Origin: Sialis fuliginosa
Taxonomy: Eukaryota > Arthropoda > Insecta > Megaloptera > Sialidae
Reading direction: 5' to 3'
Assembly: GCA_961205875.1 (NCBI GenBank)
Contig: OY540812.1
Coordinates: 15,376,001 to 15,440,000 of the forward strand
Length of the DNA stretch: 64,000 bases
Shown here: piece by piece, positions 37,991 to 62,043 of the stretch
How positions within the stretch are numbered: the first letter of the stretch is position 1
Layout: the number at the start of each line of letters is the position of its first letter
Translations under genes and position numbers: made by a program
The notes under the pieces: generated by a model
What the model was told of the DNA's origin: nothing
What the model saw: the letters and a program-made list of their open reading frames with translations, nothing else
The model's database searches: none

Positions 37991-40086
37991 ACTATCATTA
38001 ATATAATGAAATATTATAACCCATAGAAAAAATGAACGAATTTAACCGATCTTCTAAATATAATATTAAAAATAATGATGTATGTAATACTTGCATAATT
38101 CCTATGCAACACTGTTTTAGTTTGGATTAAAAATAATAATTTCTACTCCATCGAGATAATTTTTAATTAATTAATAATTAATATACAATAATTTATAATA
38201 AGCACTTATAAATTAACAAACGATAGAAATACGTTTATGCGACGTGAATATCAAATAATTAAATATTTATGTTTAAAAGTATATTAATTCTGATATTGTT
38301 ATAAAAAATAATAACAAAAATTAATGCAAATCTATGTGTACAAATACACGCACACATTATATAACAAAAATAAGTGTAAATAACGTTTTGAACGTTAAAA
38401 ACAGCGCGAAACCACTCAACAGTTTCAATGGCCATTATTATAATTTGTTTACTTTATTTTGTAGTTACGCTCCTCGGTTCCATTATAAAATAATCTGTGC
38501 CAATTTCCTTACAAGACCAAGTGCTCGTTTAAAAGGTGGCGGAATAAGAAAAAATCTATGTAACATTATTTACACGAATTAATACTTTCAGTTCAAACTT
38601 TTTATATGTAAATTATTCGGTCCTTATTTTTACATTGATTATTTTTTAAAAATATTCAAAAAATTTCAGGGGAATTTTGATGTAATTGACATACATGGTG
38701 GACGTTTATCGTTTAATTACTCGAGACGAAATTACACTAATGACCTGAATTTTGTTCTAGTTATACACATTTGAAGAGTTTCTCAACTAGTGACCCATAT
38801 CACGAGCAATTACGATAACGAAAATAATCTCAGACCGAGAACTTTTCAACCCCCCTTCGTATAATTGTATAAATCAAATTAAATACTATAATATAAAAAC
38901 GAGAAAAAGAATAAATGAATAATCAAAAAATTAAATTAAATAGTAATGTAGATTAGTAAACATAAGTAACACTATTCTACGATTTCAAACCCAGTGTAAA
39001 ATAAACTACAATTTGTAAAGAAAAGAAAAATTTCATTACGACAAGAAGGCATTGTATTTAATTTTGAGTAATAAAAAGCCGCAAAGTACGGCCCTTTATC
39101 GCACACCCCGGCAGGACCGCCCAAGATATTACTCCAGCCTCGTAAGATTACCCTGGCGGAAGCTGCATATATATTGTCTACACCCATATATAATGCTAAA
39201 TTATGCATATTAAAGATGAGATTTTTTGTTGTCCTATCTGCATACATTATAACAGTCTACTGGATCTTGTAGAGAGAGGCGGAAATAAATCCAATAACAA
39301 TTCCTGACGTTATGAGATAAGTTTTCCTTTTGCTGCCGTTGTTGTTGTTGTCTTGTTATTGCTTATACTTTGTGACTCTTATTTCAGAAACATTGATTTT
39401 TTTTACTTTACTAATGGTGAAGTATTGTACACATTTATAAGTATGGTTGGTTAGAAATATTACGAGAATGCGTATAGAACGTTTCAAGAATGTTAGTTGT
39501 ATATTGACGGCAAGTTATTATATTATAAAAAACTGACAAAGTTAATTTAACTATAGGATCATTCCATGGTAACGGGTGGGACGTTTTGACAAACAATCGA
39601 ATACTTAAAGGTGTAAATAAAGCACATATTAATTACGATATTAGCATTCCTAGATATATTTTTTAAGATATGGTAAAGTGAAAAACGTGAATATCTGCCC
39701 TAATTTTGTTAAATTAATAGATTTGTATATGTGACGGGTGGGACACGAATTAGTCTCCTCTTTTTAGATACTTGTACATGACGTTGAAAATCAGATCAAA
39801 TAGATCATCTAAAAATCTAATTTTATTTTAGTACGTTACTTGAATAATGTCAATAATTGGTTTTTTTAAAAGAGGTGAGTGAAAAATCAATAGAAGTATT
39901 TTTTGTATTAACTGCTTATTTTTCGAAATATTATTTTTATACTTCATCGACATAAATACCAAATATTGATAAAAATTTTGTTTTGTATTTTGAAATAAGA
40001 GGGGCGCGGCATATAAAATTTGCGCACTCGTATATTAAACAATTCAAATTAAATTCTTAATATCTACATAATAAAAAATAAGTTTA
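37991..40086. other. AT-rich DNA downstream of PARP copy 1
   Basis: There is a GC-richer part at 39070-39170 and two GACGGGTGGGAC/AACGGGTGGGAC words (39570, 39732) that may belong to an old repeat. No gene is supported. Confidence 0.4.
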
Positions 40087-41114
40087 CTAATAATAATAAT
40101 AAACAATATAGTTAGGATAAAATTCATTATCATAATATTTAACATATACTTTGTTATTCCCAGTTGTTGTATCTCCTTTTCTTGGTAATTTACGAAAACT
40201 TGTTCCTTCTTCACAAGTACCAACAATAACGTCGGCGATAATCAAAGCACGATTTCGGCCAATGTTGCCATTACAAAACATATTTGCGTATTTTGTATCA
40301 TCAGAAAATGAAACACCTCTAAAATGTAAAAAAAAATCCGGAGTATGGATAATATACATATACAAATATTTTTATTGTTTATAAAAAACTACCGATAAAA
40401 AATATTGGTAGATAGAGTTATGGTATGAGCCAGCATGGGTAAACCCAGTGGCATGTTACAGAAGTTGAGGGCTCCAGGTAAAATAAAATTTTGGGGCCCT
40501 CATTAAAAGTTTTCTGGTATTTAACAGTCAAAAGAAAAAAGGCAAGGTCTTCACAAGGACTGAAAACCTTTTATTTTATTTTATTAATTTAATTACTTAT
40601 TTATTTTGTTTATAATTCACCAACTTAAGCCCTTCTTTTACTTCGGGGCCCTAAGTGGATGCTGAATGTGTAACACGCCTCTGGGTGAACATATTTTTTT
40701 GAAACAATGCAATATACATATGTATGTAATGAATAATAGTTATAAGTAAATAAAAATAATGTTTATAAATTGTATACCTACTTACTTTCCAAATTTATAA
40801 CGAGTAGTTAAACGCCAATCTAGATTTGTTGCTGCTATTGAATCAATATTGAAAGCTGAAGTTACATGGTATAACTGTTTTAAAGAACAATTACTATCAC
40901 GTGATTGGCATTCCATCAGTTTTAGTAAAACCTGTCCTCGTAGATATGGGTTTTCACAACGAACAATTTTTTTAATAGGATACTTGTATTGTTTGACAAT
41001 GGCTTGATATACCTCATTGCTTTGTGGTAACTCATACAAAACATGTTTTTTGTATGAACTCTGCGACCAATTATCTTGAACAAAATAACTTTCCAAGGTG
41101 GAATAACTCATCAT
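40087..41114 (-). CDS. Small stand-alone PARP-type ADP-ribosyltransferase, copy 1 (two coding exons)
   Basis: The coding exons are 41114-40786 and 40318-40087 (stop TAG), giving 186 residues. The donor reads GGAAA|GTAAGT, the acceptor TTTTAG|AGG, and the intron is phase 2. The product is nearly all PARP catalytic domain, with no zinc finger, WWE or macro domain. Residues 47-58 (IKKIVRCENPYL) match the RI.RIQNP.L strand, LYHVTS at 81-86 aligns with LFHGT (His83), FGKGVSFS spans the splice junction, and Tyr120 is in TKYAN. The third triad position, in KVYVKYYDNEFYP, is Val167 rather than Glu. In the family, His-Tyr-hydrophobic enzymes transfer single ADP-ribose units, and Glu is needed for chains. 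The Gly after His83 is replaced by Val, so activity may be altered. Met1 was chosen because it is the first in-frame ATG after a conserved non-coding exon junction. There is no signal peptide. A paralog lies 12 kb away on the same strand. Confidence 0.88.
40446..40683. mobile_element. hAT-like MITE in intron 2 of PARP copy 1
   Basis: The element is 238 bp with imperfect inverted ends CAGTGGCATGTTACA and CAGAGGCGTGTTACA. The flanking 8-mers GGTAAACC and GGTGAACA agree at 6 of 8 positions, as expected for an old 8-bp duplication. It has no coding capacity. Removing it and one TSD leaves an intron of about 221 bp. Confidence 0.65.
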
Positions 41115-41128
41115 AAAAGCAGAAAATA

Positions 41129-41344
41129 CTAAAAAATCATTTTACATATTTATTAATTTCAATAGATAATTTGTTACAATTATAAAAGAGTTTCAATACC
41201 GTGATAGAAGTAGTAAAATCTTCAGAAAATACACATTAAAAATACAAATTCTTATTCTACGCACTTCACAACATTAATACCTCACTCGGCTGATCACAAA
41301 ATTAATATAAACAAACTAGTAGTCACGATTTAAAAGTGCCAACT
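41129..41344 (-). promoter_or_regulatory. 5' non-coding exon, first intron and possible initiator of PARP copy 1
   Basis: On the minus strand a donor CACG|GTATTG (exon end 41200) and an acceptor TTTTTTAG|TATTTTC (exon 2 start 41128) define a 71-bp intron. The same sites occur in copy 2, which supports them. The frame of exon 2 meets a stop when extended into exon 1, so exon 1 is untranslated. A block ATTTTTATCAGTTG (TCAGTT at 41346-41341) is shared with copy 2 at the matching place and fits the arthropod initiator TCAGT, with the start at about 41344. The splice sites are seen directly; the start site is inferred. Confidence 0.45.
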
Positions 41345-41620
41345 GATAAAAATGAAAAATAAATAAACTGTACGGGCTGAATAGATGATGACTGTACTGA
41401 CCAAAATTGAAATGTAAAGTTAACATTTTTTTCACATAGTCGAGTAGCTAAATTTTTATTGCATGTATGCCATTTATGAATTTTTGGTAACTGCAGGGGA
41501 GTTAAAGCCAGAAAAATTAATAAATAAGATATTTTGAGAGAGTTTTCAAACATTCCCGAAGGTTAATTTCTTTTCATAAATTGGAAATACTATGTAGTAC
41601 ATAGAGTATGTACATTAGAG

Positions 41621-42169
41621 CGGTCCTTATATAGGGTTAGGACGAAGTTTGACCGGGCCGCCTCCCAAATCAGCTCCAAATAATTAAAAAAGAATGTGGA
41701 AAAAGTTTCAACCCTCTATCTTAAAAAATGGCTATTACCAGAGGGGGAGGGGGAGGGGGGAGTGATTTATATATGGGTCAATGAGTCATTTCATCAAGAG
41801 AACATTTAAAAAAAATTGTTTTTATAATTTGGCAATGAAAATATTGATCTTGAAATAAAAAATTTTGATTCTAAAATTAAAATTGAAAAAAAATTGGTCG
41901 CGCCAGTTAAAAATTGATATGGAATGATCTTTTTTGATTTTAGAATCAATTTTTTATTTATGTAAAAATCAATGTTTAAGACACTCTAGTATGCAGGTCT
42001 TTGAAAAATTGAAAAAACACGTGTATTTAAAATGGGAAAATCAGCCCCTTCTGGTAATGGCCATTTTTTAAGATAGAGGGTTGAAAATTTTTTCACATTC
42101 TTTTTTAATTATTTGGAGCTGATTTGGAGGGCGGCCCGGTCAAAATTCGTCCTAACCCCATATAAACCG
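41621..42169. mobile_element. Fold-back MITE with ~130-bp inverted arms
   Basis: The left arm (CGGTCCTTATATAGGGTTAG...) and right arm (inverse of CGGTTTATATGGGGTTAGGA...) pair over about 130 bp, including AAATCAGCTCCAAATAATTA and CAACCCTCTATCTTAAAAAA. The interior has AT-rich spacer and G-rich tracts. No clear target duplication was found. Confidence 0.75.
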
Positions 42170-42392
42170 AAATCTTTGTTACATCCCTGGCTAGTCACAA
42201 AACAATCGTGCAATTGTTATAATTTTGTACAGAAACACACAGCATGTATTCGAGTTCTCTTAATAGTGCTGACACGCGAGAACATTTGAGAATGTAAATA
42301 AACAATGTGTTTGGTTTTTCTAATGGAAAAAAATAATTACGTCACAAGTATGAATGGACGCTACACCTAAAAAAAATGTATAAACTTAGTGA

Positions 42393-42432
42393 AAACTATG
42401 GCGGAGAAAGTAGAATTTCTTAGGGTCTTACT
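42393..42432 (+). CDS. Possible first coding exon, unidentified
   Basis: An ATG in good context (AACTATGGCGG) opens 12 codons that run into CTCTG|GTGAGT, a strong donor match, just before the MITE at 42456. No acceptor or following exon was found, and 40 bp is little evidence. Low confidence. Confidence 0.12.
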
Positions 42433-42455
42433 CTGGTGAGTACCCCTGTATTGCC

Positions 42456-42804
42456 CATAGACATAGAGCATGGACCACGCATTCTGTATTTACATAAAGA
42501 TGTAACATTTTTTTAAAACAGTGAGAAAGATGAGATGGCGTTTGGGATATATCTATCTTTTTTCTAAGAAGAATGAAATATTTATTCCTGTTGAAATAAG
42601 GACAAGTACACCCAAACCATTCTGTTTTCGAGTCAGATGCGCGGTTTATGCTCTATGTCTATGGGAGTACTATGTATTTCATTTTTTTTACAATTAGAAA
42701 AATAGATAGATATTCGTATATTCCAAACTGTTTTCTCACTGTTTTGAAGAAATATTACATCATTATGTTTATATAGAATACGCGGTCCATGCTCTATGTC
42801 TATG
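42456..42804. mobile_element. MITE with CATAGACATAG ends and perfect 8-bp TSD
   Basis: The 349-bp element has ends CATAGACATAGAGCATGGAC and its inverse, flanked by GTATTGCC on both sides (42448-42455 and 42805-42812). A third, inward copy of the right-type terminus lies at about 42640-42663 (GCTCTATGTCTATG), and the DNA before it matches the left part of the 53.9-kb relative. The element is therefore rearranged or composite. Confidence 0.78.
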
Positions 42805-42812
42805 GTATTGCC

Positions 42813-42975
42813 TGCAATATTGGTCCAGATGATTGTCAAAACTACAGGACCGCTGCATTTCTGTGCCCTGTAGGTAACTCCAATTTAATCAGTGTAATTT
42901 CCGATATGATTATTGTATGTCCACGTTACAGAACCGTTGTATTATCTGTACCTTGTAACTGCGATAATTAATTTG
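42813..42975. repeat. Two-copy ~80-bp minisatellite with an open Cys-bearing frame
   Basis: Two diverged ~80-bp units can be aligned (CTACAGGACCGCTGCATTTC near 42843; TTACAGAACCGTTGTATTAT near 42928). A plus-strand frame stays open to a TAA at 42971 and contains several Cys residues, but its apparent start lies inside the neighbouring MITE. I recognise no family. A repeat open by chance is more likely than a gene. Confidence 0.35.
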
Positions 42976-43461
42976 TGATATAATTTCAAACTAAAGTTAC
43001 CCCGTCTAATAACTATCTATAACGAAGAAAACAATTCTATATTTAAAATTTATAATAATTAATATAAAAATTATATAAAAAACAGAGACCGAGAAAAGTA
43101 ACGGTTTCACTAATTATTATTGATAATCCTTTAAAACTGTGACTTGTTGATATCGTCTCGGTCTCGTCTTCGATATTAATCAGTAATGATTTGTTCAGTA
43201 TAATTAAGGTATTATGGAATACATTAATATATTATTATATTATATTAAAACCCTCCTTGTGGGATCTAGACATCAGGGCACATCACTCGCTGCCTAATCT
43301 CTCACTGTCATCGTCACTCACAACACAGACGCCCTCGCTCTATCGCTACGCCCCCAAGGCTTCCACGTTCGTAAACATGCTAATGCTGCCAATAACACAA
43401 AGGAATGTTTGTCTTTTAACTCTAAAGAAGCAGATATCCCTCTCTATCATTAATATATATA

Positions 43462-44242
43462 AAGCTCAACATATCTCTGTCTGTTTGTCTGTCTGTCTGC
43501 CCGTTAGTGCGCTTATAACTCGAGAATATATTCTCTAGCCAGATAGGATAATATAAAGAATAAGCAGTGACGATATTAGTAAAACAAGTCGGGTAAAAGT
43601 TTGCCGCCAGCGCGCTCTTTTGCTACGCTGCCTAAACCGTTAAATATATTGAACAATATAATGTAGTACAGAATTGTGTAGAATCAAAAGATCTAAAATA
43701 AAGTCCGCGATACCATATATCTTACTTTTATATTTAAGCCACGATGACTGCTTTTATGTTACAAAGAAAATTAAAAATGTTATGGTTCTGTTTACGTTGA
43801 CTTATGATCTGCAAAACATTAATCCTTATCGAAATAAATAATTTCATCGTCATAAGTATTTAATGTAGATATAATTTGTCCCTTACAGCATCCACTTTGG
43901 TTGTATAGTTTAGGAAATATCTTGAAATAAATTTATATACGGTAACAGGTAACATTAAATAACGCACGAACTAAGGAAAAAGTGCCTCGTCGGAGCGAGG
44001 GGCAAGAGATTGCGATTCGCATGTGCTCGGCCGGTATTCGGATTCCCTCAGCTTATTGTTAGTCGACTGTTTTGATCATCATTGTATTCAATAATTAACA
44101 TTTAATTCAAACAGCGCACAAATTATTTGTACTTTTTGTTCTGATTCGTATTTGTACTTAATTCAACTATATTTTTCTAAAATCCTAAACAATAATTCCG
44201 TAGTCCACGCCAGCGAAGCCGCGGGCACAGCTACTTATAATA
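43462..44242 (+). mobile_element. Likely interspersed repeat, TCTGTCTG start and GCCGCGGGCACAGCTA end
   Basis: The CTCTGTCTGTTTGTCTGTCT region at 43475 and the AGCGAAGCCGCGGGCACAGC region at 44210 resemble the two ends of a very common insect non-autonomous repeat. The interior holds a GC-rich part (43975-44055). No TSD was checked. Confidence 0.4.
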
Positions 44243-44639
44243 TATAATACAATAAAATGCACAATATGTATTTTTTACTGTATTTCTCTTTCAAAAGATA
44301 AAATCTGGACCGTTTTTATTATAAGCTTCTTTATAAATTAAAAATAATGTACATAATATTTTATTATAACTATGAGTAAATCACAAAAGGTAGATCCTAT
44401 ATACATAATAAACTTCCAATATCGTCTTAAAGAAATATTTTTTTTAGTTTTTATAGAAACTTTCGATTGTGGATAAATAATCCGAAACATAACGAATCAA
44501 GTTCAATTTCACTTTAGAAAATTACACATACTCGAATGCTTTAAATTATAAACTTGTATACCTATCTACATCCTGTCAGCAGTATATTGCAACAGTGATA
44601 GTAATCACGATAAGCAAATAGATAGCAGCGGTGTATTGT

Positions 44640-44815
44640 CCGGAATCATGTACATTTCCTGATTCAGTATCCCGGCCGTCGCGTCGTCGCGCTTGAGTTG
44701 TTCATAAACTCTACTCCTCCGAGCTATACAACCAGCTCACGTACGCTTTGCAACGTCGTTGCAGCAACACTTGGCCGAAGAAATACGGCTGCAACTGCAG
44801 ACTATACACACATAC
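44640..44815 (+). promoter_or_regulatory. GC-rich segment with initiator-like motif
   Basis: CTGATTCAGTATCC (TCAGT at about 44665) is followed by CpG-rich DNA (CCGGCCGTCGCGTCGTCGCG) and short non-diagnostic frames. It could be a promoter and 5' UTR; no donor is obvious. Confidence 0.2.
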
Positions 44816-45267
44816 ACACAAATCTTGCCTACTCATTCTCCCACTGCTAAACATAGGCGGGCGAAGAACTTATTTTTGGCGCATACGTATTTTATTTTGT
44901 ATTCTGAATCATGAACACATTTTGGGTATGCATATTTCTTATTAGACGAAAAGAGATCTCAGTTAGCTTTTAAGTTTCGTCTCGTCTTATACACATGGAC
45001 GAGACTGATTCTATATAATATGATCATATTATGTAACCATATATTACCATAAAAGATCATATAAATATAAACATGATTCCATATATAATAATATACATCA
45101 TGTATGACCACATAAGGTACTGGTACCAGTTATTGCCGCTATAAGAGCAAGGTTGACTGTTTTTGTGATTGACGGGTTTCTTTTTTGTTATTCTTATGAA
45201 ATTATGTTACTAATAAAACAAGTAACTCTTTATTCAATTAATTTAATTACCAAAGTCCGCAAATATA

Positions 45268-45333
45268 TGGATCTTGGCTTACACCCAGAAGCCAAGATTA
45301 ATATCAAGATCACCGCGGAAGCCTTAAGACTAT
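45268..45333 (+). mobile_element. 5'-truncated retro-insertion (same family as 14.5 and 20.5 kb)
   Basis: The 66-bp insert (GGCTTACACCCAGAAGCCAA near its start, ...ATCACCGCGGAAGCC) is flanked by a 9-bp duplication GCAAATATA (45259-45267 and 45334-45342). Uninterrupted copies of the host element lack it. The shared 3' portion with variable 5' extent and variable TSD length is typical of target-primed retroelements. Confidence 0.7.
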
Positions 45334-45630
45334 GCAAATATAATTTGTTTTTTAAATTATAACTTTTTATTTTGTTTATGTTTTTTCTCCAGTAATGGAT
45401 AAAGTAAAACCAGTAATGAACCCGCAGTGATGGACTTGCTAGTGATTACAAAATGATAAGTACTACAACACAAAAGATATAAAAGAAAGAATCGTCAAAT
45501 TTGAAACAATATAAAGCAGTTGCTATGATAATATAATAATTAATAAATAAACTATAGTAATAATTAATTTAAATGTCCACCATTTTGACACCTATTGGCT
45601 GATTGTCATCAAATCACGCTGTAAGACAGT

Positions 45631-46704
45631 CAGTGGCGTCACTAGGGTTGGTGTCACCCAGTGCGGTAACTCATGGTGTCACCCCCCTCTATTTTCTGAG
45701 CCATCAATAAAAAAAATCTGAAAAAATTCCAGGATGTAGCTTTTAATTAGTACATTCACTGAAAATTATAACGAACATTGTTAAAAATATTTTGGACCTC
45801 TCTTTTATAGACTGAAAAGTGAACTCACACTTTTTCCCACTCACCCCATTGAGTGGGGTGTCATTTATTGATAGGTCTCCTAAAATACAATAAAAAATTT
45901 TGAAATAACTCTTTTTTTATAAATCGCAGTGAGAATGACTACAGAAAGTGCATTGTGCATTAATTGCCGATAACATTTTTACCGCAAAATGAGTGCAAAA
46001 TTTCTATACGGCCGTGGTATCAATAAATAATTGATTAAAAATTAAAAAACATAGGTACACCAAACTATTGCTATAAATAGACAAAATTTGAAACCACGAT
46101 AAATTGCAGTTTTCCGTTTCCTGACTTTTTTCCCGATAACTTTGGAAACCGCACGTTTCTGCACCTAATTCTTATAAATGTTTAGAATGAATACCTAAGC
46201 TAGAAATCTATATTAAATATAAAGCGTGGGGAAGCGTGGGTGACTGCCAAATGTCTCGGTGAACTTGAAGAATTTTCTTTTCTCCCTTATTTTATTGTTC
46301 AATTAATTAATCGTTAACTGAACCGTATAATTAAAAACGTAAAATTGTCCTAAAATCTCCATAAGATGAGCTTTTCAGAAATGTATAATACATTACACAT
46401 ATTCCTACAAAGTTTTATAGAAAATTAACTTTTAAGTGATGAAGCGAACAGGTTTGAATTGAAAATCCACAAAAATAATGAACAGTAAGGCTTCAAAAAT
46501 AGTCTTTTTACATAAAATTATGTGAAATTCCTGCATTATAGTAAAGAATAAAGATTGACCCGGCTGAGGTGAAACAATGCATAAGAATAATTTCATGGAG
46601 TGACAGAATCGTAGATAGTGATGTTTTGCATTTGGGTGTCACCCCTTGTGATGGTGTCACCCGGTGCGGTCCGCACCCCCCGCACCCCCCTAGTGACGCC
46701 ACTG
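45631..46704. mobile_element. hAT-superfamily non-autonomous element, 1,074 bp
   Basis: The ends are CAGTGGCGTCACTAGGG and its inverse, with G/C-rich subterminal runs (GGTGTCACCC and its counterpart). A perfect 8-bp duplication AAGACAGT lies at 45623-45630 and 46705-46712. It is inserted inside the GGTACTGG-ended element, so it is the younger of the two. No transposase frame is present. An internal ~280-bp segment (45683-45960) recurs in the element at 59.7-60.8 kb. Confidence 0.9.
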
Positions 46705-46833
46705 AAGACAGTTAAAGTATATAGATTAATGTTCAGAAATTGTAGTAATCAAATATCAACGAATTTCTAATTCAGTATATTTAATTAAAAAATAACCATT
46801 ACTGGGGTCATATCCAAGACTGGTGTCAGTACC

Positions 46834-47944
46834 TTATATGATATGATATGTTTCATATAATATGTTTTATTTTTCCCAAGTAACTATTAAAATTAATGAA
46901 AGCGTACGCTACTGTTACCACAGATACAAATGCATATGATACTTTATCGAACTGGTGTGTTTAATTGAAAAACGTCAGTGTTTACTCTCTTAAAGTAATA
47001 TCGTCTTCTGTAAGCACAGTGCAACCTTCTAGAAACGTACCCACATGATTTAATGAAATTTTTTGTTATAATATAATATTTACTTGTACTTAGACTTCTT
47101 CCAACTTAAACGGTCATATTATTATAAATAGAAATAAGTTTCTATTAAAAAAATTCTTTACTTTTATGTACGAGTACCTATATTGTATATTGATTATGAA
47201 CATACAAATAAAAACTGGTTTCTTCATAACACTTTCTTTAAATCCTATATTTTAAAATTTTGTAAGTACTAGTCTAGACTAAAGCTTTGTAATTTCCTGT
47301 TTTATTATTTTTATGCTTTAATTCTTCTGTATGAAGCTATAGTTATTTTGTAGCCAAGCATATAATATTTACTTAAAAATTAAACAAACTGAAAACCTAC
47401 ATCTACATAATATATTTGATCTCAGAATAATTTATTAAAATAATAGGGTATTATTCTGTTTATAAGACCTGTAATGAATTTGTACATATCCTCCAGCATT
47501 GTCAACTTTGAGGTACAGCGCGAGTAAAAACTTTTCATTATCTTTATAGTTATTCTAAAGATCCAGTTAATTTAAGTTTCGCCGAATAAAGTTTATACTT
47601 AATAAAGTTTAACAAACTTTACCCAGTTTTGGAAATTACATAGCGTATATGTATATATATATATAATATAATATATTTAAACACAATGGAGTTTTTTTTT
47701 ATCACATATTGTTAACTTTTTATTTAATCGTTGAGAGGCAAGAGTATATTTAAAAAAATTATATTCAAGCGGCAAGGTAGATCAAAATTATATTATAGAC
47801 AAGTAATCACTAGTACTTTTAAACTGCAAAAGAAGTATTTTAGATATTATTTTAGATTTCATAACATGCTAAAGAATTTTTTATATATTTTATTTTTGTC
47901 TTCTAGCTCCTCTTGAACTTTTTTTATTATACTTATATATATAC

Positions 47945-47979
<35 letters not shown>

Positions 47980-48455
47980 TTTTTTTTTACTTTATATGCT
48001 AAAGAATAAAATAGGTATTAATTTATTAATTGCAAAAAAATAAAGAATCCAAGACAGTAAAATATTGCGAGTGATGATTTAGGTTAAAGTTTTTTTTTAA
48101 ATGATACAAAATTACTATACTTAAAAACTTTATAATGATAATTGAAATGAATATTGGGTAGCCTATAAGCCGTGTGTTCATTATCAAACTTACCACCTGA
48201 ATATTTCTGAAACTAAGCGTTTAAAAAATGTTTCAAATAAAGGTTGTTTAGTTTTGAGGGGAAAATAACATAGCGTTATTAGTTTTTCATTTGGTGGACC
48301 TTTTCAAGGTCAACATTTTTTTTGTTCAAATGGAAACTTATATTTTTTATTACGGTATCTTATTTTATAGAAACATAAGGAACTAGTATCTTAAATACTT
48401 TTTTACGACTTCATTTTCCAAGATATTTAACAATCTAATTAGAGATTTTGTTGAA
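46834..48455. other. AT-rich DNA, no gene seen
   Basis: Only simple repeats and short frames are present up to the LINE relic. Confidence 0.45.
47949..47978. repeat. (TA)15 microsatellite
   Basis: An uninterrupted TA run between two ACTTTTT words. Confidence 0.93.
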
Positions 48456-48640
48456 AGGGTATGCCTACGCGCAAGGGATGAATGAAGAAAGATGGCCCAA
48501 ATTAATTATTAACTGGTTACCTAGGAGAAAAAAAAAAGAGGTCGCCTAGCGGTGAAATGGAAAACATCAGTCCAGAACATAATGGCAGAGAAAGGGTTAA
48601 GTGAAGAAGATTGAGAAATTGAGAAGATAGATAGATAGAG
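48456..48640 (+). pseudogene. Decayed LINE (non-LTR) reverse transcriptase C-terminal relic
   Basis: In the plus strand MNEERWPKLIINWLPRR is followed, after a frame change in an A-run at 48528-48538, by RGRLAVKWKTSVQNIM and then a TGA replacing a likely Trp codon. The order RW..I..W.P..(K)RGR....W...(I) is the familiar tail of non-LTR element ORF2 proteins. Only this tail survives, with a frameshift and stop, so it is non-functional. Confidence 0.55.
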
Positions 48641-49930
48641 GACGGAAATCCTGTAATGAGAAAAGAGATGAAGAAGAAATTAGATTTTTGATTTTCATGA
48701 ATTTTTTACTCGAAAATCATCTACTTTAAAGAAAAAGTGCAAAAAAGTCCTAAATCGCGAATTATATTCTTGAAGAAAAATGAAGTCGTACAAAAGTTGC
48801 TTGTAATACCGACATATATAAAATTGTGAACAAAACATATAATATAGAATTTATAAATTAGCAAGAAGCTAAATATAAACTTGTGTTCTTAATGACCCAA
48901 AAGCTACAGATGTTATTATAATATATTTAATTTATTATATTTTTCAGTTTCATGTATTGAAAAATGTTATTTGATATGCACAGATAATATAAATCAATAA
49001 ACATATTAAACGAGGAAAATATTATGCCGACTTCCATCTTTGAAATTTGACCTATATCATTACAACCCAAATTTTTTTCATATTTTAATAACATGCATAA
49101 ACATGTAATAGTGTACTAATAATTATAGCTTGTATAGTGTATATTTAAAACTAACGTTCGATATTTATGTAGATATATTAGTAAAATTCGAAATTAATCA
49201 AATTTTACAAATACAATGAATATATGAAATCAATTTACATATTTACATTTGCATATACGTCCAGCATTACAAAAAAGTAATTATAATATATTGATTATAC
49301 ATAATAATGTAGGCAGTGTGTAAAAACATAGTATACTGATTAAATTTATCAATAACTGATGCACGTATATTTCCGCAAATGCAGTTTCTAAAGCAGAATT
49401 CAATTATTTTGTGACTGCATGTGCAAAACAATTCCAATTATCTTCATGATTTGATTTGTGAAAATAATTACACTCACTGTATGCATATTTAAATATTTTG
49501 TGTTGATTTAATTTTTCGGATAATGTTTTGTCAATTTGCAACTCTATATTTAGGTACAATTTCAATTTTTAAACATATCATTATAAAATGACTTGGGATA
49601 TACCTATATATAGGTAGATACTGATTTTTTTTATAAATAGGATTTAATATTATAATATAATATAATATTTATTTGAATGTAAGAAAGTTTATCAAATCCA
49701 ATAAATAAACATATAAGACTGCATATTGAAGTTGTATCTGTTTAATGTAAATATTTTTTTTTTTTTAAGCAAACACCTACAGTGTTGTACCCTGGTGGGG
49801 TGCTGGGGAGATTTTTCCCTCCAATATTATTATATTATATTATTGTACACTTTAAGAAAAATAATTATAAAAGTATGATAAATCAATGTTCGATAATTAT
49901 TTGGCTATTTATAAAAATATTAAGAACTAA

Positions 49931-49945
49931 CCCCCCCCCCCCCCC
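49931..49945. repeat. Poly-C tract, 15 bp
   Basis: Homopolymer near a G-rich stretch (CCTGGTGGGGTGCTGGGGAG at 49790). Poly-C/poly-G pairs of this kind also flank elements at 34.9-35.0 kb and 60.76 kb, which suggests subterminal parts of transposons. Confidence 0.9.
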
Positions 49946-50589
49946 ATCACCGAATTTTCTTCTCTGCTTTTAAAGAATACATTTGTCATAATTATTATTA
50001 TTACGTTTATTTTTTGGTATAAAATATTATAATTATTTCCAACAAAGTTTTCAACAGTTAAAAATAAATACGTACCTAACATAAAACGTAACACACAATC
50101 GAAAAAAAAATACGATCAAACAAAGTCGTTTTCGGAAAATACATTGTCGATTATTATTCAATACGCGTTCTCTAACAAATATAAATTTTCGTAATTTGGA
50201 GTCGATCGTTCGTCACGTATATGACAATGGGTCGTTGGCGCGTATTCAATTTTGATTGGGAATAATTAAATACGTAATAAATGTCACATGACGTTGTTTG
50301 AAAACAATCCATCATCATCATCGGCAGTTATAACCAGCGAGTCGCAGTCTGGACGAAAAATGAACGAGCGTTGAAACAAAGAGCAGCAATATAAACAATG
50401 CACCATCACCAGTGCTTTTAAAAATGTGCAGCTGTTATAATCAAACATATCGAACATTAAGTTATTGTTAGTCGACAATTATTTAGAAATTAAATTTTAA
50501 TGATGCTTTTTGATTCATGGATATCGTTTGTTGACCTATGTAGGTAGTGTCTATTTTTGCAGAATTTATTATTCATAAATATTTATATC

Positions 50590-50870
50590 CATGTAGAAAA
50601 TGCCAGCCTTGACGATGGGCCCAAGCTTGGCGCAGTATTGGGTTGCCAGTTTTGTTTTTTTCGATATTGGTCCTACTCTAGGCCAATATCAGATACCGAG
50701 CTTCGGTCACCTATTCTTTACCCAAGATTGGACCAACCTTCAGATACCGAGTTTCGGGTCAATATTTTACCTAAGATTGGGCCCTCTGGACCAGTCTTAG
50801 CCGAGTCTTGAACGAAGATATCATTTGTATCTAGCATTGGTGCAAGCCTGGGTCAATCGTGGCCTCTTTG
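50590..50870. repeat. Degenerate short tandem repeat (AGATACCGAG..TTCGG, AAGATTGG)
   Basis: Units of about 50-60 bp carry CAGATACCGAGCTTCGGTCA / CAGATACCGAGTTTCGGGTC and ACC(C/T)AAGATTGG. Two overlapping plus-strand frames stay open across it, as expected for a GC-richer repeat; I do not consider them genes. Confidence 0.55.
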
Positions 50871-52650
50871 TAATTTACTACATATCCTCATACGTGGATA
50901 TCATGCATAAAAAGAATAAATTATATACCATGCATTAGAGGGTTAATTAATGCCATAAGACCTTGATGTAACTACATTGTCTTTCTATATTGTAGCTACG
51001 CTACTGTGTTAGAGTACAAAGTTGCGATATACGATATATGTTACATGTGTGGTTCAAGATTTTTTTTTAAATATTTTTTATTTCTTTATGTACTTTTTAT
51101 TCAACTATTGTTAATATATTTTCGATAGGTGTATATATATATAGATTTATTATTCGAGACAAGTTTTTAGTATATTCAAATAAATAGACTATAGAATGCT
51201 ACAATATTTATTTTATAAATGTATTCACCACAAAATATATTATTGCACTAAAGCGAGTTATTATAAATAGAATGAAGTAGATTTCAGAGGAAAAATTATT
51301 TGAAAAATAATGTTTGAAAACTGCTTTTAATGAGATCTCGTATAGATAAATCAATTGATCGCTTAATCAAAGATTGAATAAAGGATAAAATTAGCGGCGA
51401 ATCAGCATAAAAAAGAGATAGAACGAGAAAAAAACATATTTGTGTTTGATTCAATAAAATCGAGAGCTTTTTAGATAAATAACGATTATAAAATTCAAAC
51501 GAAAAAAGGGAAATAAATATACCATCATACTATATAATAAATAAAATATATTTTTCAATGTAAATGTATTATAATTCTTATGATTTCCAATCGTCAAATC
51601 CGAAAAATAGTGTTAAATTAACAATAATATAGTGTGTAGATATTTAAAAGATATTGTCAAAACCAGTTTTATAATAAAAATATTAATAGATCACTGACCC
51701 TGCTTATCTTCAAATTCTTTCTTGGCTCTTTATCAAAAAGTTATAACATCTCTCATTCAGAACTTTTCTTAAAATAGAAGCATTGGTTTATTTTTAAGAA
51801 AATTCATTTAGTCATAAAGAATTCATTCTACTTTTTTATTTTCAGATATTTTAATTTGATATTCATACTTCGTATCAATATATCAAAATATTAGATTATA
51901 CACATTATTGATGTAAACAATATTTCTATATACTAAAATTTTAAGATATTTTAAGTAAAGGTAATTTATACAAAAGTAATTAAATTACATAAAGCTTTTT
52001 ATTTAAAATAAAAGATAGGATGTGTTATAGTTACAAAAGACACGAAATATTAAAGATCTCGTAGAATGTATTACCTACCTATCACATATTATCTTTAAGA
52101 ATAATGTATGTATGTGTAAAAAAAAGCAATATTTTTTTTCGCTCTCATTACGAAATAGTAAGTTAGTTTATGACCTAAAATAAATTCTTGTCGAAAGATT
52201 ACCCTGTAGTTTAAATTTAAAAGGTTCCGCAAGGGGGGTTTCGTTTTCCGTTTAAATAACATTGAAAATTATTTTTTACTACCAAAGTTGGTATTACTGA
52301 TTCATGATAACTAATAAAAAAATTTAAGGACGTCATTTTGTAAAGAATAAAATTATTTTGTAAAAATGCCAGTTATCGGCAGAGTAATTCTTTTTCTAAA
52401 TGCTCAGTAGAAGGGTTATACATTGCTATTTAATTGCTATTTATAGAATATTGACCTTAAAATGCTGATTTTTGTAAAAAAATATTTAAAGCGCTTATAA
52501 GTTTCAAATCATTGCATTTACACAGACCCCCTTTGCGGCACCTCTTAAAATTGAACTACAGGTAATTTTTTGGTGAGGATTTATTTTAGATCACAAACTA
52601 ACTTATTTCATAACAAGAACGAATGTTCATTTTTTGATACACCCTAAATA
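50871..52650. other. AT-rich DNA, no gene seen
   Basis: No inverted ends, tandem units or splice-bounded frames were recognised. Confidence 0.45.
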
Positions 52651-53326
52651 GGGGAAAGTATGGTATATTACACCACTCGCTAAATTGGACCACCCTTATA
52701 TCTCGAGAAGTAGTTTTCTGATTTCTTAAATGGCAACACCGTGCGATAGGCGCCTAACTTTATTGCATATCGGATATATTGTTTTCCTTGACAAGTTGAA
52801 TGTTAGTGTTTTGTTCCCGCAAATGTAAATAAGTGGTTTTTGATGTAATTTTGAGTGATTCGTGCTAAGGGTGTAATTTGTACAAAGGTAAGCATACAGC
52901 ATTTTTAATTTATAGTTTGCAGCAGCAATTTATCAACAATTATCTGTCATGGATTGATTGGCGGCTTTGATAGGTTTTATTTTTTATAATTTTTTTTTCT
53001 CACTTTTCACACTGTTGGTTAAAATGGACCGCACGTAGTTACCATAGCTAGAATCATGAAACTTATACCAATAATTCTGACATATGTGAAGTATTAAACT
53101 CCAAATTAGCAACCCCGTGGTCCAATTTACAGTACTGGTTGGTTAAATTGAAACAAAGCTTCGATCTCACATTTTGTTGACTTTTATCGAGTTTATAATA
53201 ATTACGTTGATTAATACTTAATAAAAACATAATCTATAAACTGCTGTTTCATTTCATAAAAAAATAATTTGTCTAAACCTTAAATATCTTAATTAAAAAA
53301 ATGGTCCAAATTAACCGACTTTCGCC
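52651..53326. mobile_element. Probable MITE with GGGGAAAGT/ACTTTCGCC ends
   Basis: Imperfect inverted ends (TAGGGGAAAGT and TAGGCGAAAGT) with TA borders enclose about 676 bp. Related words recur inside (AAATTGGACCACC, AAATGGACCGCAC, TGGTCCAAATTAACC). A similar lone terminus GGGGAGAGTGGGG lies at 17188. Confidence 0.5.
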
Positions 53327-53496
53327 TATATATTGAATTAAATATTTGATATTTATCTGGTCTCACAATCAGTCTTGTTTCATCCAAATTTAAGTATTTT
53401 CATAGACGATAGTAAACAGAAAAAAGTTTTGAATCGAGCGACGCCGCGCCGCGATGCAGATGTGAAGACTTAATATTCACATAGTAACACATAAAA

Positions 53497-55766
53497 TTAC
53501 AAATCATAATAAACGATGTAATAAGGATAAAATTCATTATCGTAATATTTAACATATACTCTATCAGCTCCAACGGTTGTATCTCCTGTTGTTGGTAATT
53601 CTTGAAAATATGTTCCTTGTTCACAAGAACCAACAATTACGCCAGCGATGATCAAAGCACGATTTCGACCAATGTTTCTGTTACAATACGTATTTGCGTA
53701 TTTTGGTGAATCAGAAAATGAAACACCTCTAAAATAACCAAAACAAAAGGTATAAGTAAATATAATAATATTAACAAATGTTTTTATTATTTATAAATAA
53801 CAGATAGAAATGATTGGTAGGATTGTAGGGATGAAATTTATAATGAAAAAATAATGTAATAAATATTTATAGTAATGAAAAAGTTTTATTACTCATAGAC
53901 ATAGCGAATGGACCAGACATCTGACTCGAGAGCAGAGTCGTATCAAAAGAAAGAGATAGAAACAGGTTTGGAATATACTTGTCCTTTTTTTAAACAGGAG
54001 TGTAACTATTTCATTCTTGGCCCCGAACATTAAAAATATTCATAGATATGTATATATAAAGAGGTGAAAAACAAAAAATAATTAATGTTATAAACAAATT
54101 TTATTAAAAAAAAAAACAATTATTGATTTCTAAATAATATAAGTTTCGAATTTTTTGACCCAATTTTAATATCTTGTTTTTCCTTTTTCGTAGCTTCGTA
54201 ATGTAACCTAATATCAAAAAAAATATTTAAAATTTTGTTAACTAAATCTTGTATGTGCTGTTTGTAAATGCAGCAATCCACATGGGAATTAATTTAAAAT
54301 TATTTTTTATTAATAAATATTTAATATTTTTGGTAGAAAAAATGTTATTTCCCGGAATATCCGTTCATAATTTTGCAAATTTCTATCAGATCAATTGATG
54401 TTTTTTTTTTAAACCTCGGTGAAATATGAACCATTATAGTATGTTTCTTGTTTATATTATTTACTTTTCTAATAAAAAACTTATTGCACAAAAATCACAA
54501 AATAGATATACAATAATATATCTGACAGAAATACTACCCTGAACTGTAGTAAGCTACCAATCAGATTCTTAGAAAAAGAGATAGATACATTCCAAACTAT
54601 ACTGCATCTCTCTCTCACTTTTTGAACAGATGTTACACCATTGTGTTAATACAGAATGCACTGTCCATTCTCTATGTCTATGTTATTACTGATTATAAAC
54701 AGGGAATTGAACTTGAACCCGAACCCGAAACCCGAAATAAGCCGTATTTTTCATTAACTTGAACTCGAACCCGAAACCCGAAAAAATCCGTATTTTTCAT
54801 AACTTGAACCCGAACTGAACCACTATGTTTCAAAGTCAACGAACCTGAATCTGAATCCGAACCTTTTCATGGATAACCGGTAACCATATATTTTTAAAAG
54901 GTTCAATGACTTATTTTTAATATTTTCCTCTAATGATTTTTAAAGAGATTATAAATTGTACTAACTGAAAATCAGTTTGAATTTTATGGTATGATGTGAG
55001 TTATCAAGTCCACTACTAAAATTTACATATTTATTAATTTCTTTTTTAATTCTATAATTGAATTACATTTCAATTTGTAAAAAAAATCTGAAAAGTAGAG
55101 ATTTCAATCTTTAAAATATAATTTTATTCTTGTTCCTTTTTCTAGCCATATTTTAATGGTAATTAATGTTTTTTTTTCTTCAGAAAATGTTTTATTTCTT
55201 AATAAATTTTTTTTTTCCAACAAAATTATTTTCTTTCAATTACAAACTTGAACCCGAACTCGAACTCGACCCTGAACACTGAAGAAATAACGGTTTTTGA
55301 ACTTAAATAGTTTGCACTATGTTGAACCCAAACCTGAACACGAACCAACATATATATTTGAACTCGAACAATAAATAAATTCCAGTTTAAGTCCCTGATT
55401 ATCAACAAATATACAAAAATCTATACCTACTTACTTTCCAAATTTACTACGGGTAGTCAAACGCCAATCTAGATTTGTTTCTGCTATTGAATCAATATTG
55501 GAAGCTGAAGTTACATGGTATAATTCCTTTAATGAACTGTCATTATTACGTGATTGACATTCCATCAGTTTTAGGAAAACTTGTCCCATTAGAAATGGGT
55601 TTTCACAACGAACAATTTTTTTTATACGAACGCCGAATTGTGCCACAATTTCTTGATATTTCTCGTTGCTTGGTGGTAATTCATATAAAACATGTTTCTT
55701 ATACGAATTCAAAGACCAATCTTTTTTAACTATGTGCATTTCTAGGTCAGAATAATAACTCATCAT
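53497..55766 (-). CDS. Small stand-alone PARP-type ADP-ribosyltransferase, copy 2 (two coding exons)
   Basis: The coding exons are 55766-55435 and 53728-53497 (stop TAA), giving 187 residues. The donor GGAAA|GTAAGT, acceptor TTTTAG|AGG and phase 2 are identical to copy 1. Exon 3 lacks its own ATG, so it is easily missed. His84 lies in LYHVTS, Tyr121 in PKYAN, and Val168 (in RVYVKYYDNEFYP) takes the third triad place. The Gly-to-Val change after the catalytic His is shared with copy 1, so it predates the duplication. Exon 3 matches copy 1 at 56 of 76 residues by eye, with the frame and the NIGRNRALIIA and VYVKYYDNEFYP blocks intact, which suggests constraint. An ATG also lies upstream at 55790, but it falls inside the predicted 57-bp first intron. 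The 1706-bp second intron holds two transposons. The role is probably mono-ADP-ribosylation or ADP-ribose signalling; the substrate is unknown. Confidence 0.88.
53894..54682. mobile_element. DNA transposon with CATAGACATAG ends in intron 2 of PARP copy 2
   Basis: The 789-bp element begins CATAGACATAGCGAATGGAC and ends with the inverse (...CTATGTCTATG). It is flanked by a perfect 8-bp duplication TTATTACT (53886-53893 and 54683-54690). A shorter relative lies at 42456-42804. The interior is AT-rich without a long frame, so it is non-autonomous. An 8-bp duplication fits hAT or P-type elements, and the CAT start resembles P-element ends; the superfamily is unresolved. Confidence 0.8.
54700..55397. 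mobile_element. hAT-like non-autonomous element with GAACCCGAA-type internal repeats
   Basis: The 698-bp element starts CAGGGAATTGAACTTG and ends with an inverted CAGGGACTTAAACTGG. The flanking 8-mers ATTATAAA and ATTATCAA match at 7 of 8 positions. Both flanks inside the ends are degenerate arrays of AACCCGAACCCGAA-like hexamers (54710-54870 and 55245-55370). It sits 17 bp from the CATAGACATAG element, in the same PARP intron. Confidence 0.75.
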
Positions 55767-55780
55767 AAAAGCAGAAAATA

Positions 55781-56025
55781 CTGAAATCATTATAGTTATT
55801 AATTGGATAGATATTTCATTAAAAATAGTAAAAATACCTTGATATCAGAGATAAAACTTTCAAAAAATACAAAATTTGAACAACAAAAATCTGATTCTAT
55901 ACAATCACAATATTATATACTACTATCTGACATTTTATAATATTACGATTCAATATCTATGTATGTACACAGTTATATATAGGTATAGAAAAATTATATT
56001 ATCATTTTTTTAAAATATCAACTGA
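55781..56025 (-). promoter_or_regulatory. 5' non-coding exon, first intron and possible initiator of PARP copy 2
   Basis: The donor TCAAG|GTATTT (exon end 55838) and acceptor GATTTCAG|TATTTTC (exon 2 start 55780) define a 57-bp intron matching that of copy 1. Exon 1 carries an in-frame stop just before the junction, so it is untranslated. The shared block TATTTTTATCAGTTG places a candidate initiator at 56025-56020, about 185 nt upstream of the donor. No strong TATA box is visible. Confidence 0.42.
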
Positions 56026-56302
56026 TAAAAATAACATAAATTAAGGTACTGCATTTACAATACAAAAAAGAGTGATGTAATATTAGCATTCGTGAAATTA
56101 TGGTTACCTGAAAGTCCTTCCCCCCAAATGGTTATGAAAAACAGCTCTAATTAAATCTTAAGAGGTTTAACCATATTTATACTTGATATATTTTTAATAA
56201 CATACAAATAACTGTATAAGTGTGAAAAAGTATAAATAGTAATATCTATTATATTTGAACTAGAAGAATTTGCATTTTTAACATAGCTAGCAGTACAAAT
56301 AT

Positions 56303-56663
56303 CTACAATGTAATGAAAGTACCTATACAAAATGTTATTGATAAATTAAATCGTATTATTAATGTATTTTTAATGTCGGGTAACTTGTTCGATCTAAAAT
56401 AATTACTAGTCATGTTTTGTAAACAACAAAGATACCTATAAAAAAGTCCAGAATTCGCTACTGAGGATGATTCAGCTGATGGGCCGCCGATATAGTCACT
56501 GTTCTGATTGATAACACCGAGATGGTAGAAAATTGCTTTGTCCTGGATAAGAATAGAATATGACAAAAATGAAAAATTACAAAAATGACCATTGGACCGT
56601 GCGAGACGAAGGCCGCCAATTGAAGTCACTTTTGACGTCTTTCTGGACCAAAATACGTCCCTG
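56303..56663 (-). pseudogene. Coding-like fragment, perhaps in a hAT-type remnant
   Basis: Read on the minus strand, the segment starts CAGGGACGTATTTTGG, like a hAT end, and then stays open for 108 codons (GGLRLARSNGHFCNFS; NQNSDYIGGPSAESSS). An acceptor-like TTCTTATCCAG occurs in the middle. No transposase motif is recognised and no opposite terminus was found. A host exon upstream of PARP copy 2 is the alternative. Confidence 0.2.
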
Positions 56664-58328
56664 GTATAGCTATAAATCAGGCTTGGATTAAGCTAAATAG
56701 TTTTTATTTTTAGTTCAAAAGGTAGGACTGATCGTTGGTTTATTTATTTTACATTTGTAACCCAAATTTTTTGGAAAATTCTAAGTAATTTGAAAATTGG
56801 CATTTGACACGCATTTATTTAGTCGTTATAAAGTAATAGGAATGTAAAAATATCTGCTAAATGGTTTTTTACGTGGTGACAGATGTCAAAAATCAGTGTT
56901 TTTATAAATATCTCGAAATCTACAAAATTCATCATAAAAATGGATATTTAAAAAAATGAAGATTAGAAAATCTATATACCTACACTTATTTTCTACAGTA
57001 AATAATTTCTACGGAACATAATTATATGATTATAACCATTTTTTCGTGGAATTGAAAGGGACGTTAGGTTAGATATTTTCGATAAATTGTGCTATTGACT
57101 TTCTGCATACCTATTATTATTAATGATCAAATAAAGGAGTACACCAATGTTCAGGCTATTTAGAATTTTTCGAAAGATAAGCTAGAATTATTAATTTGCG
57201 ATTGTAAAATATAAAAGTTATCGGTAGATATCATTATCAACAATTAAAAATACACGTTTTTCAATACACAAAAGAATTTTTGATTATCATTTAAATATTT
57301 AATCGTTGAAATATGTATAATGACGTATATATTATATTTTTAATAATGATTAAAATACAAACATTTTATGACTAAATTGACTTCCCACGTTTATTATATT
57401 TAGTAGTATGACTTACTTAATCATATTATTTATATCAAATACTTGAATTACAATGTTGAATTACACAGGTAACAAAATAATTTTTATTAAAAGAAAATAT
57501 AAAACATTTGAACCATCAATATTAAAAAATTAGAATTAGAAAACGATAATAATCCGTAAAGAAATTATTAGAAATATCCAAGTGACTAATTTTTTTCTGT
57601 TTGGCCAACCCTGCGACAAAACTCGACTGGCCTGTGATGGATCACTTGCGATTATCACAGTGTCTGAGTAAAGGCACGTTGATGAATCTTCCGTAAAATA
57701 ATGATGATAGAAAAATAAATTGTTTTTGCCACCATGTCATCTTTTATGTTTTTATTTATTTATAAGGGAACTTTAAATTAATTAAAACAAAAATGCGCAT
57801 TTCACAAGAAAACAACCAACACAAACAATTAAATTAAGAGTTATCCAGGACTGTTTTTCTTTCGGAGAAAAGAAAACAGGAAATTCCGGGATCTAAAGTA
57901 TATTTCTAATGTTATGTATACTTATATATATAATAGAAGTTATTCTTTGGATGAAGTTTGGAAAGTGTTGTTAAACAACCACAGTACTATTATTGTGTTA
58001 AACAGAAATTTCAAAGTAGCTTAAGTTATACAAACATACATAGATACACATAACGGCTTACGCAAAGAGGTCAGGGTTGATACAAACTTGTTAAATCCGA
58101 TGTAATCACACAGCTCAAAAGTTTCCAGTTCTACTGGGACTATATATCAAAATAGATTAAACTCAAAGAACAATGTAAAACTACATATTTTAAAGAAATA
58201 TTTCTCGTTGTGAAATAAAAACCAACATAGAATATTAATTTTTGATATTTATCATTTAAAGATGGCAAAAGGTCATCGATGCAAACGGAGATTATTTCGC
58301 TGATTAATATCTTCTTTTAAATATATAA
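56664..58328. other. AT-rich DNA, no gene seen
   Basis: A slightly GC-richer part at 57600-57680 has no recognisable content. Confidence 0.45.
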
Positions 58329-58883
58329 GGTAGTGGTACCAGTCTTGGCAAGGACCTCAGTAATGGCAAATTTTTAATTAATTGTACTGAATTAGAAATA
58401 TGTGTTGATATTTGATTACTACCATTTCTAAATATTAATCTATATACATTTAACTGACAGCGTGATTTGATGACAATCATAGGTGTCAAAATGGTGAACA
58501 TTTAAACTAATTATTAGTATAATTTATTTATTAATTATTCTATTATCATAGCAACTGCTTTACATTGTTTCAAATTTGACGATTCCTTCTTTTATATCTT
58601 TTGTGTCGTAGTACTTATCATTTTGTAATCATTAGCAAGTGTCCATGACTGCGTGCTCATTACTGGTTTTACTTTATCCATTACTGAAGAAAAAACATGA
58701 ACAAAATAAAAGGCTCTCATTTAAAAAACAAAGTATATTTGCGGACTTTGGTAATTAAATTTATTAAATAAGGAGTGACTTGTTTTATTAGTAACATGAG
58801 TTCACGAGAATTACAAAAAACAAGCCCATTAATAAAAAAAAAGAAAACTTGCTCTTATAGCGGTCATAACTGGTGCTTTTACC
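58329..58883. mobile_element. GGTACTGG-ended non-autonomous element, diverged copy
   Basis: The 555-bp element has a left end GGTAGTGGTACCAGTCTTGG and a right inverse end GGTAAAAGCACCAGTTATG. It is colinear with the 8.34-kb copy. No coding frame was found. Confidence 0.75.
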
Positions 58884-59932
58884 ATGTTAAATTATGCAAA
58901 AAAAAGCCCAGAACTTTTTTGCACACCTGAATTTATAACCGATCTGGTATCAAAAATAACGGGTTAGGTTTTAGGTTATTTAAATAAAAGATACAATACT
59001 TTAATGTTTAATGAATACGAAATAAACAACATAATACATTAAGTAAGTTGGTGACATTTTTTAATCTCTAATTTGTATTATAGTCATCCAAGATTATTTA
59101 TTAATACGAGTTTTGTCATTTTTATGATATTCATCATTTAAAATGAATTAATTTCAACTAAAACCTATACAACCACACAATGCGTAATCACAAGTAGGCC
59201 ATAAAAACCGAAATATTGGTTTGCATTCTCTCGCAAACGATATAGCAGCGATTTGAAACTCGTATAACATAACAATAACACTGCATAAATATTTCATGAT
59301 TGAATAGACTTCTGAATCAAAAACGTTGCAACCAAATAATGTTTCGCATTTCATTCGATATAATAAATTATGCAAGTCAATGAATAGAAGAGTATAAACA
59401 TTGTTGGAACCAACAGTAGATAGACGGCCTGGAATAATAATGCCCCCGGAATTATGTGAAATATATTCCGAGACTATCATATTCCGGGAACGGTTATAGT
59501 TATCTGATTTTTTGTTGTGCTCGCTCCGAGCGGCAATCGAAATAAAAGGGAAGGATATACTGTGTTTGCGTTCCGAAGAGCCAATTCACACGGGGAGATT
59601 CTTTAATAATAATAACATCTGTATTATATTATAGTTCGGCTCGCACTGCATATAAAGTAATCTTAATAGTGATAACAGGAAGCGTCCATTGATTACGTAC
59701 GGATAATTTTCTAAATTCTCGATCCTCCCCCTCGTATAAATTTTTTTAGGTTCCATTTGTTCCTTTTTAAGTTTCCGTAGAAAACTAGGAAACCTTATAA
59801 TTTCGCCATGTCCGTCCGTCCGTCCTCAAAAATTTTAGACCATTTAAGATGAAATTTGGTATACGGACGAAGACTGAAAACCCAAAAACAGAAATGATAA
59901 GATTTTTGAAAAAAAATTTTTTTTGGACCCCC

Positions 59933-62040: not shown

Positions 62041-62043
62041 TAA

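Follow-up and report, generated by a model that had tools for sequence, protein, structure and literature searches.

Within the window analysed here, a 64,000-nt stretch of DNA, we identified two paralogous genes, copies A and B, both on the minus strand and encoding predicted proteins of 186 and 187 residues, respectively. An earlier sequence-only reading had likewise described two same-strand paralogs of about 187 residues. The features of the pair are the following:

40087..40318, minus strand: copy A last exon, through the stop codon
40319..40785, minus strand: copy A coding intron, 467 nt, predicted splice sites
40786..41128, minus strand: copy A first coding exon, CDS start at 41114
41199..41129, minus strand: copy A inferred 5' intron, 71 nt, donor inferred
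41200..41280, minus strand: copy A inferred non-coding first exon in the upstream homologous block, donor inferred from sequence only
41329..41367, minus strand: copy A short conserved upstream block, putative promoter element
53497..53728, minus strand: copy B last exon, through the stop codon
53729..55434, minus strand: copy B coding intron, 1,706 nt, predicted splice sites
53894..54682, no strand assigned: MITE-like inverted-repeat element in the copy B coding intron, flanked by a perfect 8-nt target duplication
55435..55780, minus strand: copy B first coding exon, CDS start at 55766
55837..55781, minus strand: copy B inferred 5' intron, 57 nt, donor inferred
55838..55920, minus strand: copy B inferred non-coding first exon in the upstream homologous block, donor inferred from sequence only
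56008..56044, minus strand: copy B short conserved upstream block, counterpart of 41329–41367

The coding intron interrupts both genes at the identical codon position and in the same phase, as the sequence-only reading had noted, and its predicted splice signals are common to the two copies (GTAAGTAG at the donor and TTTTAG at the acceptor). Reading frames and predicted splice sites are intact in both. The proteins are identical at 138 of 185 positions when aligned with BLASTP and at 136 of 186 with MAFFT. At the DNA level, homology was found in a block corresponding to 41280..40767 and 55920..55416 (77.3% over 520 columns) and in a second one corresponding to 40411..40056 and 53820..53469 (78.5% over 362 columns). 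The MITE-like element can account for 797 of the 1,239 surplus bases of the copy B intron relative to that of copy A. No third copy was detected in the window by tblastn with both proteins (to E 10), the best match off the two loci having an E-value of 2.4.

Both proteins match the Pfam PARP family (PF00644), with E-values of 1.7e-9 and 5.9e-9 and scores of 37.9 and 36.2 bits, above the family cut-off of 26.7, which bears out the earlier description of them as little more than a bare PARP domain. Among 33 PDB matches, which do not include PARP7 or PARP11 and which were ranked rather than placed in a tree, the pair is nearer to PARP12 and PARP13 than to other PARPs. The top solved relatives are PARP13/ZAP (E 1.8e-12) and PARP12 (2.4e-11), followed by PARP15 (5.1e-05) and PARP14 (1.2e-04); scores range from 45.9 to 50.5 bits for PARP12/13 and from 23.8 to 26.3 for PARP14/15, and reach at most 17.0 for PARP2 and PARP1 (best E 0.034). 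Comparison with PARP12 and PARP13 fragments by hhalign gave a probability of 97.9 and an E-value of 5.4e-13 over 152 columns. An AlphaFold model built from a two-row alignment was unusable (mean pLDDT 43.5). Foldseek with this low-confidence model gave a best E-value of 1.1e-2 at a TM-score of 0.19 and none of 199 matches at E 0.001, the best 50 of the 199 being to PARP12, 14 and 15 at TM-scores of about 0.2. Relatives were identified by tblastn neither in viral contigs preselected by short peptide patterns (1, 108 and 346 pattern matches) nor in prokaryote genome contigs preselected likewise (79 and 594 pattern matches); these scans, seeded by few short patterns that distant relatives could escape, covered contigs without animal genomes as such.

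The active site composition of both copies, as aligned to PARP12, departs from that of PARP enzymes. The His-Tyr-Glu triad reads H-S-V: the histidine is kept (H83 in copy A and H84 in copy B), the tyrosine is replaced by serine (S113 and S114), and the third position is occupied by valine in both copies, as in PARP13. The residue following the triad histidine is a valine in place of glycine (V84 and V85), and the pocket serine is replaced by alanine (A121 and A122). The position of the stacking tyrosine is occupied by a tyrosine in copy B and a phenylalanine in copy A. Because the triad tyrosine and glutamate have given way to serine and valine, with valine and alanine at two more pocket positions, both copies are probably devoid of ADP-ribosyltransferase activity, at odds with the sequence-only reading, which had called them stand-alone catalytic proteins. 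Weak NAD binding may persist in the pair, since the triad histidine is retained and copy B has a tyrosine at the stacking position. Based on the identity of the replacements in A and B, inactivation probably preceded the duplication, with gene conversion as the alternative.

It is unlikely that both copies are active mono-ADP-ribosyltransferases whose atypical active site could make do with the histidine and other residues. The retained histidine and the stacking tyrosine of copy B are compatible with such activity, and the loss of the glutamate is described as tolerated by clade 3 enzymes (PMC2964712). However, the tyrosine-to-serine, glycine-to-valine and serine-to-alanine replacements at pocket positions are present in both copies, and ZAP and RCD1, which lack at least two NAD-binding residues, are reported as inactive (PMC7532188).

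In the first of the two homology blocks, the similarity between the copies extends some 150 nt upstream, beyond the first coding exon. The alignment of this upstream block scores 75 compared with a shuffle mean of 22, and that of the further short block (41329–41367 and 56008–56044) scores 40 compared with 21; neither score was matched in any of 500 dinucleotide shuffles of the copy A side. Conserved upstream blocks are thus present in both copies, as the sequence-only reading had proposed, and the promoter role that it gave them is putative. That reading had also assigned a non-coding first exon to each gene. In both copies, the upstream frame that would be continuous with the first coding exon contains stop codons, in agreement with this proposal, and a non-coding first exon, with donors placed after 41200 in copy A and after 55838 in copy B, is plausible for both.

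We consider it quite improbable that the exons of both copies are parts of longer genes with upstream regulatory domains such as WWE or zinc fingers, a finding that would have counted against the sequence-only reading by its own account. Vertebrate PARP12 and PARP13 carry such domains, and remote exons can be missed without RNA. The homology between A and B, however, stops about 150 nt upstream save for the one short block, within a stretch where the joining frame is closed. Minus-strand three-frame Pfam scans of 41130–50900 and 55790–63990 (50901–53399 left out) gave no upstream match, and overall none of the 12 sequences scanned in this way had a match at E 0.1. This negative is weak, because the same type of scan misses the PARP exons themselves: it gave no match in stretches that include both copy A coding exons and the terminal exon of copy B. 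Individual exons fared similarly: PF00644 matches to the last exons alone had E-values of just 0.35 and 0.66, the copy A first coding exon matched only DUF4294 (E 0.04, under its cut-off), and its copy B counterpart matched nothing. A CCCH-finger pattern had no matches in 41129–53400 and 55781–64000, and about none in shuffles either. In the PARP7/11/12/13 branch, moreover, the insect and cnidarian members are reported to contain the PARP domain only, with WWE sporadic and "a few" such proteins in one genome (PMC4245714).

The sequence-only reading had regarded both copies as intact and functional and had suggested dN/dS between them as a check. The codon-model omega is 0.254 (LRT 27.8, p 1.3e-7), with values of 0.233 and 0.285 by exon, and NG86 gave 0.47 (bootstrap 0.30–0.77); across methods omega ranges from 0.23 to 0.58, as estimated from two copies with no outgroup. 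Differences between A and B number 31, 32 and 44 at codon positions 1, 2 and 3. When 107 random substitutions were simulated on copy A, the frame stayed open in only 4 of 5,000 copies, and the mean protein identity of the simulated copies was 64% versus the 73% observed. Both copies are under purifying selection, in line with that reading, and the constraint is moderate in view of the spread of omega and the differences by codon position. That one or both copies are pseudogenes whose function was lost too recently for stop codons to appear is very unlikely, for although the NG86 value, the modest third-position bias and the already replaced catalytic residues can be read that way, they are opposed by the frames and predicted splice sites intact in both copies, the low codon-model omega with its p-value, and shared active-site changes that are probably older than the duplication. 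Since those changes probably predate the duplication, loss of the active site would not have brought decay.

At a probability of roughly 0.7, we favour the reading that the locus holds two constrained paralogs, each a single PARP12/PARP13-type domain predicted to lack enzyme chemistry and kept for a non-catalytic role. Inactivation would have come before the duplication, and the degenerate domain would serve as a binding or scaffold module rather than as an ADP-ribosyl writer, by analogy with PARP13/ZAP, PARP9 and TASOR. The inactive PARP domains of these three proteins belong to larger proteins, which makes the role of the domain itself hard to tell. A natural protein that consists of the degenerate domain only, and exists as two constrained copies that have diverged, would allow a direct test of the domain alone.

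The C-terminal domain of PARP13/ZAP (ZC3HAV1), the best solved match of the pair, shares with it the valine at the third triad position and a replacement of the glycine after the triad histidine position, but has a Y-Y-V triad in place of H-S-V and only 48 of 157 residues identical with copy A. The C-terminal CaaX farnesylation box of the long ZAP isoform is missing in the predicted proteins, which end in IVYYYY and IVYYDL. The catalytic domain of PARP12, the second-best solved family, aligns over the whole domain and has an N-x-DWR stretch in common with the pair, whereas its residues H, G, Y, S and I correspond to H, V, S, A and V. PARP12 has N-terminal zinc fingers, in contrast to the predicted bare domains of the pair. 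A further likeness to ZAP would lie in its inactive domain still contributing to function, the YYV motif being reported to contribute to antiviral activity (PMC8568172). The pocket of ZAP is reported to be closed. Degenerate triads (Q-Y/S-T/S) are described for PARP9 orthologs (PMC2964712). TASOR and RCD1 are both presented as precedents for inactive PARP domains; TASOR resembles the pair in having a PARP fold without NAD chemistry and a non-catalytic role, but is a multidomain HUSH subunit acting via an extended loop (PMC7532188). Because mutation of the degenerate site of TASOR is reported to have left function unchanged (PMC7532188), the precedents do not reveal which surface would matter in the pair.

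The domain-only architecture is already known from stand-alone PARP12-like proteins of Tribolium castaneum, in a description that does not state triad loss (PMC4245714), and a bare PARP-domain protein from another part of clade 3, Dictyostelium DDB0304590, is described in PMC2964712. The modest new element is therefore the degenerate yet constrained pair. Among the open-licence PMC papers matching our search terms, we noticed none on an insect PARP that stands alone and carries an H-S-V triad. Published accounts of arthropod PARP12-like proteins disagree: arthropods are reported as apparently without ZAP/PARP12 homologs (PMC8102003) and insects as without most vertebrate PARPs (PMC10221186), whereas a few Tribolium proteins were assigned to the PARP7/11/12/13 branch (PMC4245714). 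If the host is an arthropod, the pair agrees with the last of these accounts. More doubtfully, the bare pseudo-PARP could recognise RNA or protein without catalysis, perhaps as an equivalent of the ZAP C-terminal domain in immunity or transposon control; in an arthropod host, such a factor would occur in a phylum reported to be without ZAP/PARP12 (PMC8102003).

Elsewhere in the window there are 10 non-PARP open frames of at least 95 residues. Six were compared with Pfam, of which five had no match and the frame at 4905–5246 had only SMCHD1_S5 (E 0.065, under cut-off). A search of the window for a miR-133 pattern, allowing up to three mismatches, found nothing. A mir-1 hairpin is present in the window and suggests a bilaterian animal.

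The two paralogous PARP-domain genes are arranged as follows:

41114 to 40087, minus strand: copy A, 186 aa, two coding exons
55766 to 53497, minus strand: copy B, 187 aa, two coding exons

According to BLASTP, 138 of 185 residues are identical between the copies. The common intron position and phase described in the sequence-only reading held, as the predicted intron cuts the same codon in both copies and is bounded in each by a GTAAGTAG donor and a TTTTAG acceptor. DNA homology between the copies, at 77–78%, covers the exons of both and approximately 150 nt 5' of them, with an additional short homologous block located farther 5'; the score of either upstream block was matched by 0 of 500 dinucleotide shuffles. 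The frame joining the inferred first exon, within the ~150-nt stretch, to the first coding exon contains stops in both copies, and a non-coding first exon is therefore plausible for each. A Pfam scan of the upstream DNA, covering 41130–50900 and 55790–63990, returned no domain match; scanning of this kind also missed the PARP exons.

Both copies matched PF00644 with scores above the curated cut-off. A two-row profile of the copies was run against solved structures, giving 33 matches (PARP7 and PARP11 not among them), of which the best were PARP13/ZAP (1.8e-12) and PARP12 (2.4e-11). PARP15 and PARP14 followed far behind (5.1e-5 to 2.9e-4), and PARP2 (best 0.034) and PARP1 were weak. Profile comparison of the pair with PARP12 plus PARP13 fragments gave a probability of 97.9 over 152 columns. 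Relatives of the pair were not found in the viral and prokaryote contigs scanned.

The active site composition did not bear out the description of these genes as encoding stand-alone catalytic proteins. In both copies the His-Tyr-Glu triad is represented by H-S-V, valine occupies the position of the glycine that follows the triad histidine, and alanine aligns with the pocket serine that contacts nicotinamide. At the position of the stacking tyrosine, copy A carries Phe and copy B retains Tyr. Residue roles follow PARP1, in which the corresponding positions are His862, Gly863, Tyr896, Ser904, Tyr907 and Glu988. At the triad positions PARP12 features H, Y and I, compared with H, S and V in the two copies. 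Departure from the triad is given as the cause of inactivity in ZAP and PARP9 (PMC8568172), two or more NAD-binding residues are described as missing in ZAP and RCD1 (PMC7532188), and PARP9 orthologs are reported with Q-Y/S-T/S (PMC2964712). By this standard, both proteins are predicted to be pseudo-enzymes. Because the replacements are common to both copies, the catalytic residues were most likely lost before duplication, although gene conversion could also have produced the shared replacements.

The pairwise codon model supported constraint between the copies, with a dN/dS (omega) of 0.254 (LRT 27.8, p = 1.3e-7) and values by exon of 0.233 and 0.285. Our own NG86 estimate was less favourable than the codon model (0.47, bootstrap 0.30–0.77), and omega from Biopython dN and dS was 0.41 (NG86), 0.58 (LWL85), 0.23 (YN00) and 0.27 (ML). 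Differences at codon positions 1, 2 and 3 numbered 31, 32 and 44, a weak bias. When 107 random substitutions, equal to the observed differences, were placed on copy A (n = 5,000), the open frame was kept in four simulated copies, and mean protein identity was 64% versus the observed 73%. We read these results as moderate purifying selection on the pair.

By analogy, the best-supported role would be that of a binding or scaffold protein, in which one degenerate PARP domain would constitute the whole protein. Mutation of the YYV motif in ZAP is reported to weaken antiviral activity (PMC8568172), so an inactive PARP domain can matter. Silencing is likewise described as requiring the inactive PARP domain of TASOR, via an extended loop and not the degenerate site (PMC7532188). 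The CaaX end present in ZAP is absent from both copies, which therefore would not share its farnesylation membrane targeting; an antiviral function would be a guess by family.

Proteins consisting of a PARP domain alone have been described before. On the PARP7/11/12/13 branch, Perina et al. place a few proteins from Tribolium, and they describe the cnidarian and insect proteins as having no domain other than PARP, with WWE occurring sporadically (PMC4245714); a Dictyostelium protein is listed as a PARP domain alone (PMC2964712). ZAP/PARP12 homologs are reported to be apparently missing from arthropods (PMC8102003). A bare, duplicated and constrained PARP domain with an H-S-V triad was not found in the open-licence PMC literature searched.

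Two inverted-repeat elements that are related to each other and have CATAGACATAG ends lie near or within the genes:

53894–54682, inside the copy B intron: 789 nt, perfect 8-nt target duplication TTATTACT
42456–42804, upstream of copy A: 349 nt, perfect 8-nt target duplication GTATTGCC

Insertion of the 789-nt element largely explains the greater intron length of copy B. By look, and on the basis of the 8-nt duplication, both would be hAT-type MITEs. A different inverted-repeat element lies just 5' of copy A (41627–42165; 121-nt arms, 93% complementary, 297 nt apart). The copy B intron also contains a short tandem array (54710–54815; 2.3 copies of a 46-nt GAACCCGAAC-type unit), which sequence near 55250–55370 resembles by eye.

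Elsewhere, a mir-1 microRNA hairpin was identified at 10170–10243 on the plus strand (65.2 bits, gathering score 45.6), which points to the genome of a bilaterian; a search with a miR-133 pattern gave no match. A satellite-like array spans 27976–29239 (38-nt unit, ~34 copies; periods of 148 and 186 nt too), and a similar 41-nt array occupies 29611–29835.
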